Assembly (NCBI GenBank): GCA_947630285.1
Contig: CANRHD010000002.1
Span: 1-64,000 of the forward strand
Length of the DNA: 64,000 nucleotides
DNA from: an uncultured Clostridia bacterium
Lineage (GTDB): Bacteria; Bacillota; Clostridia; Oscillospirales; Acutalibacteraceae
Reading direction: 5' to 3'
Shown: positions 6,409-63,708 of the stretch, piece after piece
Position numbering within the stretch: position 1 is the first letter of the stretch
How the letters are laid out: each line of letters starts with the position of its first letter
Made by a program: the position numbers and the translations under genes
The notes under the pieces: model-generated
Database searches by the model: none
The model's input: the letters and a program-made list of their open reading frames with translations, nothing else
Told to the model about the DNA's origin: nothing

Positions 6409-6463
6409 AATGAGCAAACAGAAAACTCCTTACCGCCGACATGGTACAACAAGGCTTTTTCTG

Positions 6464-6517
6464 TTTGTATCAAAATCAGCAGGAACATAGATATGAACTT
6501 GCGGAATTTGATACAAA
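6464..6517 (+). repeat. 54-bp inverted-end cassette repeat (copy B, full)
   Basis: The ends are perfect 11-bp inverted repeats: TTTGTATCAAA at 6464-6474 and TTTGATACAAA at 6507-6517. The interior carries ATAGATATGAACTTGCGGAA. The copy at 7396 has the same length and layout. Similarity to copy A continues past the right end to about 6545. Confidence 0.85.
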
Positions 6518-7365: not shown

Positions 7366-7395
7366 AATTTATTTCTCCAATAAAGGCACTGACGA

Positions 7396-7449
7396 TTTGT
7401 ATCAAAATCACCGAAAATATAGATATGATCTTGCGGAATTTGATACAAA
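7396..7449 (+). repeat. 54-bp inverted-end cassette repeat (copy C, full)
   Basis: TTTGTATCAAA (7396-7406) and TTTGATACAAA (7439-7449) are perfect 11-bp inverted ends. Total length is 54 bp, the same as copy B. The interior includes ATAGATATGATCTTGCGGAA, nearly the same as copy B. Confidence 0.85.
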
Positions 7450-12970: not shown

Positions 12971-13286
12971 ACGGAGCGGACAGGCTAAGTCCGCTCCGAC
13001 AGTGTGTAGAAAAAGTATGTGTCACTTGGCAATATGCACAAAAGTAGTAAGATTATGTGGAACCCCCGGCGAGGGTTCCCCACCGAAAAACAGTCCACCG
13101 GACTGTTTTTCGCCCCTCCTGCGCTTTTTTGAGTATAAGAATTTCGCAGTCTGCGGACTGCGCCGGGGGCGTTGCCCCTCGACCCCACCGCCTTTTGAAA
13201 AAGGCGGACGAAAACTTTTGACATTTTGCTATCGCAAAACAGTTTGTCAACAGGCTGACGGAGCGGACAGGTTAAGTCCGCTCCGA
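12971..13286 (+). repeat. Hairpin-duplicating dispersed element, copy 1
   Basis: The core (13000-13257) starts GTGTAGAAAAAGTATG and ends CAGGCTG. It is bracketed by two copies of a 29-base palindrome (12971-12999 and 13258-13286; stem CGGAGCGGAC/GTCCGCTCCG) that differ at one loop base. The core folds into several hairpins, including one of about 13 bp around AAAAACAGTCC/GGACTGTTTTT. Near-identical cores occur around 18.5, 29.0 and 63.4 kb. Open frames on both strands here follow the repeat, not a gene. It fills the gap between the EamA gene and the phosphoesterase gene. Confidence 0.9.
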
Positions 13287-18399: not shown

Positions 18400-18704
18400 C
18401 AAGGCTGAAGCTTCAGCCTTTCAGCCTGTCGATAAACTGTTTTGCAATAGCAAAATGTCTAAAAGTTTTTGTCCGTCTTTTTTCAAAAAGACGGTGGGGT
18501 CGAGGGGCAAAGCCCTCGGCGCAGTCCGCAGACTGCGAAACACCTGTGCTTCAAAAAGCGCAGGAGGGGCGCAAAACAGTCCGGCGGACTGTTTTGCGGT
18601 GGGGAACCCACGCATGGGGTTCACCATAATCTTACTCCTTTTGTGCATATTGCAAAGTGACACATACTTTTTCTACAAACTGCAAGGCTGAAACTTCAGC
18701 CTTT
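18400..18704 (-). repeat. Hairpin-duplicating dispersed element, copy 2 (reverse)
   Basis: Reverse orientation relative to copies 1, 3 and 4; the core is at 18422-18682. The flanking palindromes (18400-18421 and 18683-18704) are AAGGCTGAAGCTTCAGCCTT and AAGGCTGAAACTTCAGCCTT, differing at one loop base. The right one is followed by TTTTATATT and is a normal terminator for the upstream plus-strand gene. Stem changes relative to copy 1 are compensated on the other arm (for example CCGTC/GACGG for CCGCC/GGCGG). Confidence 0.9.
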
Positions 18705-28819: not shown

Positions 28820-29133
28820 ACGGCAGGGCATTGCTAACCCTGCCGTCAGAGTGTAGAAAAAGTATGTTTCACTTGGCAATATGCACAAAAGGAGTAAGCT
28901 TATGGTGAACCCCCGGCGAGGGTTCCCCACCGAAAAACAGTCCACCGGACTGTTTTTCGCCCCTCCTGCGCTTTTTTGAGTATAAGAATTTCGCAGTCTG
29001 CGGACTGCGACGGGGGCTTTGCCCCTCGACCCCACCGCCTTTTGTAAAAGGCGGGCGAAAACTTTGGAAATTTTGCTATCGCAAAACAGTATATCGACAG
29101 GCTGACGGCAGGGCATTGCGAACCCTGCCGTCA
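28820..29133 (+). repeat. Hairpin-duplicating dispersed element, copy 3
   Basis: The core (28849-29104) is very close to copy 1. Flanking 29-base palindromes (28820-28848 and 29105-29133; stem ACGGCAGGG/CCCTGCCGT) differ at a single loop base. Here the element lies between divergent genes, so the duplicated hairpin need not be a terminator. The core has AAAAGGAG followed by ATG at 28902, with a 25-codon frame. It fills most of the 538-base gap between the Nudix gene and the next gene. Confidence 0.9.
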
Positions 29134-63111: not shown

Positions 63112-63708
63112 CGGCGCAGAGTTAAAACCGCTCTGCGCCGTAGTGTATAGAAAAAGTATATGTCACTTGGCAATATGCACAAAAAGGAGTAAGATTATGG
63201 GAACCCCCGGCGAGGGTTCCCCACCGAAAAACAGTCCACCGGACTGTTTTTCGCCCCTCCTGCGCTTTTAAGGCGAGGGGAGCCGAACACACACCGGTTT
63301 TCAACGGCGGATTTACGCCCATGCTGTGTCATCGCCCTTGACAATACGACAGTATTTTCTTCGGACGCTTCCTTGCCTGAACGCAAATCCGCTCGGTGAA
63401 AACTGCTTTGCACTTAACGCAGAGCTATTTTTCGTGTGATTTTGCGTGCGGACGAGGAAGCCTTGCTGACGCAAGGCAACGAGGAGAAGCGTAAAAGCGC
63501 CGAAAAGAGTCTGCGTGAAGCGGCGTGTGTTCGGCTCCCTTCGCCTTAAGGACAGGTTTTTCGCAGTCTGCGGACTGCGACGGGGGCTTTGCCCCTCGAC
63601 CCTACCGTCTTTTTGAAAAAAGACGGACAAAAACTTTTAAACATTTTATTATTGAAAAACAGTTCCTCGACAGACTGCGGCGCAGAGTTTAAAACAACTC
63701 TGCGCCGT
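63112..63708 (+). repeat. Hairpin-duplicating dispersed element, copy 4 (interrupted)
   Basis: Without its 282-bp insertion, the copy is about the same length as copies 1-3. Its flanks are the palindromes with stem CGGCGCAGAG/CTCTGCGCCG at about 63112-63140 and 63678-63707; they differ only in the loop. The right one is followed by TCCGTTTTT and works as a terminator. The core carries a small deletion after the conserved ATG. It fills the 650-base gap between GH31 and the next gene. Confidence 0.88.
63268..63549. mobile_element. 282-bp MITE-like insertion nested in copy 4
   Basis: Ends are about 30-bp inverted repeats: TTAAGGCGAGGGGAGCCGAA at the left, and its near-complement GGCTCCCTTCGCCTTAA at the right. 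It interrupts the core between CGCTTTT and TTTTTCGCAG, which are contiguous (with a short spacer) in the other copies. No coding capacity. It probably belongs to a non-autonomous transposon family mobilised in trans. Confidence 0.8.

Follow-up and report, generated by a model that had tools for sequence, protein, structure and literature searches.

The four related repeats in the DNA analysed here are copies of a short, dispersed, multi-copy element, a MITE without a transposase gene, which inserts at inverted repeats, many of them intrinsic terminators, and abuts the feet of the stem. The stem-loop is present once at sites without the element and twice at sites with it, and the length of the repeat follows the length of the hairpin. 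The matches between the two flanks of a copy, the position of the hairpin feet at the element and the single hairpin at element-free orthologous sites make it virtually certain that the hairpin was duplicated by the insertion. Judged from the sequences of the ends and from the target behaviour, the mobilising enzyme is very probably of the IS1182 type. The complete reading, a gene-less MITE moved by an IS1182-family DDE transposase that would attack the 5' feet of a putative extruded hairpin, is considered likely.

Copies of the element in the window and in the genome

The window, the whole stretch of 64,000 nucleotides that was analysed, corresponds to positions 1-64000 of contig C2 of genome G000 (2.03 Mb, 33 contigs). 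The four copies that the original prediction had placed in it were confirmed by direct reading and were also recovered as repeat families, and each was indeed bracketed by two near-identical hairpins found with that copy only. All bodies begin with CAG and end with CTG. Copy 1 (locus L003, plus strand) has a body of 258 bp (13000-13257) between a left hairpin at 12971-12999, the 29-nt duplicated target, and a right hairpin at 13258-13286. Copy 2 (L035) lies on the minus strand with a body of 261 bp (18422-18682); the hairpin at 18400-18421 adjoins its right end, and that at 18683-18704 adjoins its left end and is followed by a T-tract. Copy 3 (L001, plus strand) has a body of 258 bp (28847-29104), with hairpins at 28820-28846 (27 nt; the next two letters, CA, match as well) and 29105-29131. 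Copy 4 (L053, plus strand) is longer, with a body of 537 bp (63141-63677) between hairpins at 63112-63140 and 63678-63707, and is interrupted internally by an insertion of about 280 bp (roughly 63270-63549) with long inverted ends of its own. ORFs of at least 100 aa overlap the window copies and were not taken as genes. In Rfam, the one window copy that was searched had just one match, below the threshold and to an unrelated RNA. The window also contains a 67-nt direct repeat unrelated to the MITE (6451-6517 and 7383-7449; 82% identical, 932 bases apart).

A search of G000 with the core, in which 40 of 124 candidates were scored, yielded at least 40 full-length copies among those scored; the remaining 22 rows were matches of 28-29 nt, all except one of them to an internal inverted repeat. 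Because only part of the candidates had been scored, the left-end pattern was searched as well. With up to 3 mismatches it occurred at 50 places, and the 13 new ones were added, giving 53 loci in total, 48 of which have both ends (no more than 800 bp apart). G000 may hold additional copies. An autonomous copy was looked for among the 13 new loci and rejected, as eight were two-ended MITE variants and five had a left end only. In L041, L045 and L046 the left end continues into other sequence, and L042 and L048 have no recognised right end.

The bodies of the 48 two-ended copies range from 109 to 576 bp, and 40 of them measure 250-262 bp. Three bodies of 109 bp (L043, L049 and L050) have both ends but no middle part, two measure 302-303 bp (L047, L052) and three 535-576 bp (L044, L051, L053). 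The terminal inverted repeats are short and imperfect (CAGTGTGTAGA versus CAGCCTGTCGA; pattern CAG..TGT.GA). The 40 full-length copies differ from each other by 9% on average and from the consensus by 3-10%, so the family is not young in G000.

Some features of the element deserve separate mention. Three copies, L053, L044 and L051, carry the insertion of about 280 bp, with its long inverted ends, at one internal position, which indicates that the composite probably moved as one unit; that short and composite versions have the same ends suggests that the ends alone suffice. The inner part of the MITE, positions about 58-220 (28904-29066 in the window, for example), is widespread in the genus without MITE ends. 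A search with the whole element gave matches in 33 of 59 relatives, and many of these cover the inner part only, which may be a repeat module of greater age that has been taken up by elements with different ends. In L052 the right-hand hairpin is followed by ACAGTGTAG. These nine letters are identical to those with which the element starts and may be a remnant of a tandem copy that was lost.

Duplication of the hairpin at the insertion site

The left and right flanks of each two-ended copy were compared, with a local score of at least 14 counted as a match and mispaired flanks used as the control. The flanks matched over about 19-40 nt in 38 of the 48 copies of G000, compared with 5 of 2256 mispaired combinations, and in most of the 38 the repeat began at the last base of the element and stopped at its first. 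A separate hairpin finder was applied to each flank alone and scored at least 9 on both sides of 30 of the 48 copies (shuffled flanks: 95% quantile 8.1, maximum 11.4). In all of these 30 clear two-hairpin copies the foot of the stem lay 0-2 nt from the element. The length of the repeat was correlated with the span of the hairpin (r=0.88 for 32 copies with repeats of 19-40 nt). In L004, which belongs to the 38, the repeat is 23 nt long and AT-rich and does not form a good hairpin. Paired hairpins had been thought to differ only in the loop, which is not true of the genome as a whole: the stem changes too, for example in L007, L015, L017, L028 and L031. The two hairpins were letter-identical in 3 of the 35 pairs compared, and 4-nt loop indels were seen between the paired hairpins of L021, L023 and L029.

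The copies without a long hairpin repeat, 10 of 48 in G000 and 4 of 13 in other species, count against the reading given above. Seven of the ten in G000 have exact repeats at the junction, of 4, 4, 6, 7, 7, 8 and 11 nt; six of these contain no letters other than A and T, and the seventh is TTTT. Mispaired flanks share at least 4 nt in 89 and at least 6 nt in 16 of 2256 cases, so the two 4-nt repeats are weak. No junction repeat was found in L027, L032 and L050.

Six relatives were compared, of which G001 was the closest (88% identity in the longest match), and element-free sites were looked for in 20 of its stretches, 397 kb in all. Flank matches were obtained for 13 of the 48 loci, and ten were inspected, the weak matches of L011, L019 and L023 being left out. 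No element and one hairpin were present in G001 at six of them: L003 and L001 (window copies 1 and 3), L020, L025, L012 and L030. The hairpin was weakened at L001 and had a different sequence at L030, and at L012 and L030 the alignment covered the right flank only. The site of L051, a short-repeat copy, was empty with no hairpin seen, while the site of L027, which has no repeat in G000, carried a single terminator-like hairpin. At L008 and L035 other sequence was present at the corresponding place. Two hairpins without an element were found at none of the ten sites inspected, and the single hairpin expected of empty orthologous sites was thus recovered.

Twenty further loci contained 13 two-ended copies, from four other species of the genus, L109 being counted twice. 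Matching flanks were present in nine: L097, L099, L102 and L103 of G006, L104-L106 of G061, L108 of G035 and the plus-strand copy of L109 in G001. L098, L101, L107 and the second copy in L109 had no matching flanks. The hairpin pairs of L097, L099 and L106 are letter-identical, and from their sequences these insertions look recent. Matching hairpins at most other insertions had been anticipated, and they were found in G000 (38/48), in the other species (9/13) and at intact IS copies elsewhere. The flank, empty-site and other-species results therefore agree with insertion at a palindrome and duplication of the whole hairpin, as the original prediction had it.

In 17 of the 30 clear cases the right-hand hairpin was followed by a T-rich stretch, and in 20 of the 30 an A-rich stretch preceded the left-hand hairpin. 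In many cases at least one of the neighbouring genes thus seems to keep a terminator, which would make hairpin sites cheap places to land.

IS1182-family relatives and the search for a transposase

A transposase gene whose presence follows the family, as had been hoped for, was not found within the 39 genomes of the genus. The IS1182 transposase model gave no protein above the cut-off in any of them, G000 included, and neither the DUF772 nor the IS1182 model had a match in G000. DUF772 was present in 3 of the 39 genomes in a profile scan; the DUF772 proteins of G030 and G010 were considered as mobilisers and rejected, as they had no convincing MITE-like ends. The ORFs between two inverted MITE copies in G001 revealed no transposase by eye. 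Twelve stretches of G009, G061, G001, G012, G035, G020 and G031 gave weak matches to the ends. Since neither the element nor its host carries an IS1182-type gene, the MITE is not filed as a member of the IS1182 family, only as a probable client of it; the mobilising transposase was presumably lost from, or never binned with, the G000 genome.

One genome of the genus, G031, encodes a truncated N-terminal fragment of an IS1182-type transposase (NF033551, E=1.6e-39, below the whole-protein cut-off). The fragment starts just inside TCAGCCTGTCGAAAAA, and this sequence is immediately preceded by the hairpin AGCACGCTTTCGCGTGCT. The exact right end of the MITE consensus, TCAGCCTGTCGA, is identical over twelve letters to this IS1182-linked end and similar to ends in G237, G198, G154, G073 and Sutcliffiella. 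The matching ends have the form CAG..TGTCGA.

When the fragment was searched against 295 genomes of the order, 30 had matches. Thermocaproicibacter melissae (G237) contains eight copies of one IS, 1526 bp long, all of which abut hairpins. In six of them (L157-L162) a whole hairpin of 20-33 nt is repeated, identically and in direct orientation, on either side of the IS. The other two, L156 on the chromosome and the copy on plasmid pTVN, have hairpins B/A and A/B, which are exact reciprocals, as expected from recombination between two IS copies. Plasmid pTVN (NZ_CP101828.1; L163/L183), with hairpins reciprocal to those of L156, has the appearance of a circle excised from the chromosome, or able to integrate into it, through such IS-IS recombination.

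A hairpin repeat was also found in 6 of 12 further single loci (L164-L175). L164, L165, L166, L170 and L171 have identical hairpins on both sides, and in L169 (G048:C44) the right hairpin corresponds exactly to the reverse complement of the left one, as is visible in the loop. Two observations from this set speak against the preferred reading: the hairpins at the two ends differ within L167 and within L168, and L172, in which no right end was recognised, has a single hairpin, on the left. The ends of L173-L175 are of another type, TGTTGACAAA. Identical 30-nt hairpins flank an element on a plasmid of Sutcliffiella horikoshii, a member of the Bacilli (L181). The left end of the element on a Subdoligranulum variabile plasmid (L182) abuts a hairpin, the right end lying outside the stretch. 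In a second batch of 20 loci, a hairpin was seen by eye next to the left end of five partial CAG-type elements (L196, L197, L200, L202 and L203), and nine loci (L189-L193, L195, L198, L199 and L201) were without recognisable ends and were excluded from the end and hairpin counts. The outer base pair was 0-2 nt from the edge of the repeat in 14 IS hairpin repeats. Ten transposases passed the cut-off of the IS1182 model, seven of them from elements with a whole-hairpin repeat, and all six tried against Pfam contained DUF772 and DDE domains. The MITE and intact CAG-ended elements of the IS1182 family thus have inverted-repeat targeting in common.

Among nine IS with TGTTGACAAA ends, an exact 5-nt repeat inside paired arms was found in three, L174 (8/12 pairs), L175 (12/12) and L188 (7/12). 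The exact repeats of L173 and L186 (6 nt) and of L194 (4 nt) go with arms that pair poorly, and no exact repeat is present in L184, L185 or L187. Several edge positions were tried and the best was retained, a procedure biased towards matches, and as a general claim a loop mode for these IS is weak. In a tree of 20 transposase sequences of at least 300 aa, the 13 CAG-type sequences fell on one side of a branch (100/99); since the CAG-type labels were given from the terminal sequences, the tree shows that termini follow phylogeny and does not represent independently scored target modes. We tentatively consider, as a possibility for which the odds are less than even, that IS1182-type transposases read structure and that their sub-lineages differ in where they cut one and the same kind of hairpin target. 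On this view, cutting at both 5' feet by CAG-ended elements would double the whole hairpin, cutting in the loop by TGTTGACAAA-ended elements would double a 5-nt loop (seen most clearly in L175, followed by L174 and L188), and IS1272 would cut in such a way that the hairpin is lost. If this were true, DNA structure would set the length of the target duplication, which could then be dialled by hairpin design.

Mechanism, alternatives and relation to known systems

In the proposed mechanism, an IS1182-family DDE transposase would act in trans on the MITE ends. The target hairpin would extrude as a cruciform and be attacked by the transposase at its 5' feet, after which each single-stranded hairpin would be copied by gap repair. 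A route of this kind, with nicking of a cruciform and fill-in, fits the anatomy of the duplicated hairpins; attack at the 5' feet of the putative cruciform, taken as a separate point, is moderately favoured.

The doubled hairpins could in principle have pre-existed as double terminators, or travel with the element, which would merely lie between them. Tandem terminators do occur in bacteria, and the pairs of most old copies are not letter-identical. The hairpins are copy-specific, however, G001 has a single one at six element-free orthologous sites, and the pairs at recent IS copies are letter-identical, which leaves this explanation barely credible. If instead the element inserted at or in a hairpin and the polymerase switched template between the palindromic arms, the second hairpin would be a product of copying during or after repair. 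Palindromic arms invite such switching, and the reverse-complement hairpin of L169, together with the 4-nt loop indels of L021, L023 and L029, hints that the arms re-pair during repair. The inverted loop is confined to one locus, however, while the six T. melissae copies and L164, L165, L166, L170, L171 and L181 have identical direct repeats with the feet at both edges, which is what simple staggered joining gives. Copying during repair is therefore regarded as rather unlikely, and duplication by the insertion itself is preferred.

With regard to the enzyme, some copies of G006 and G061 (L097, L099 and L106) look recent, yet the 39 genomes of the genus contain no IS1182 transposase above the cut-off and no intact gene of this type. 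This counts against an IS1182-type mobiliser and would suit an unrelated transposase, the similar ends and targets being convergent or derived from a distant ancestor. Such an origin is decidedly unlikely in view of the twelve-letter identity with an IS1182-linked end from the same genus, the ends of several IS, which are similar on either side, and the same unusual target behaviour in IS1182-family elements. Hairpins might also be duplicated by a reverse transcriptase or by an integrase of the Cas1 type, as in casposons or CRISPR; CRISPR integration duplicates a palindromic repeat, and G000 has one Cas1 match (C1:186121-186795; L204). The surrounding ORFs read as the C-terminus of Cas9, Cas2 and Csn2, which we take to be an ordinary type II-A CRISPR set. 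No Cas1 gene lies within the element, reverse transcriptase PF00078 had no match in G000, and the IS relatives with the same behaviour carry a DDE transposase, so that this route appears exceedingly improbable. The likeness to CRISPR repeat duplication drawn in the original prediction is accordingly retained as an analogy only; the Cas1 match sits among ORFs that read as a CRISPR set, and the element ends point to an IS1182-family DDE transposase.

Most DDE transposons produce a short target duplication of a length fixed by the enzyme. That of the MITE is variable, about 19-40 nt, and follows the hairpin, so that the shape of the target sets the amount duplicated. In CRISPR spacer acquisition and in casposons, staggered integration by Cas1 likewise duplicates a long, partly palindromic repeat; the MITE, unlike these, uses a set of unrelated hairpins across the genome. 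The IS relatives fit the IS1182 family in general by the transposase model and by their domains. A review table reportedly gives direct repeats of 0-60 bp for IS1182, and curators may already be aware of long IS1182 repeats.

According to two papers on staphylococcal members of the family, the hairpin target is lost without target duplication in the case of IS1272 (PMC5678879), and part of the hairpin is lost in the case of TnSha1 (PMC4923244). The MITE resembles both elements in its inverted-repeat targets of unrelated sequence, several of them terminators, which points to reading of structure and not of sequence, and in the transposase family, of which the MITE is a probable client. It differs in that its target hairpin is duplicated whole. 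Both papers cite Siguier et al. 2015 for some IS1182 members targeting palindromes, and Wan et al. 2017 drew duplication of a whole stem-loop, by the route proposed above, as a hypothetical branch (Fig. 13, pathway b; PMC5678879), IS1272 itself following a different one. MITEPye1 of Paracoccus yeei, an IS1182-type MITE, is likewise small, gene-less and mostly intergenic, with IS1182-type ends; in the part of PMC11578231 that describes it, it has 4-bp direct repeats and 1-3 chromosomal copies, unlike the about 50 places and whole-hairpin repeats found here. ISPsy8 and ISRm22 share palindromic, extragenic targets with the MITE, but by the account given in the relevant part of PMC1525189 they insert in REP palindromes with repeats of 0, 2, 3 or 6 bp, being sequence-specific and cutting inside the palindrome. 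Palindrome targeting by the IS1182 family, hairpin loss with IS1272 and an IS1182-type MITE with 4-bp repeats are thus already in print. No published report of whole-hairpin target duplication by an IS1182 element was found in a search that left aside ISfinder, the main IS reviews, preprints and most subscription papers, and no claim is made that it is unreported.

The outcome of the hypothetical branch of Wan et al. 2017 is now seen in dozens of natural insertions, together with element-free sites and with letter-identical repeats around intact IS copies in a named organism. With these insertions, empty sites and intact IS at hand, recognition of a hairpin or cruciform by a DDE enzyme becomes directly testable. 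Matched tandem terminators may be transposon footprints, which is a warning for annotators. For the element, the duplication represents a means of inserting next to genes that often preserves a terminator.
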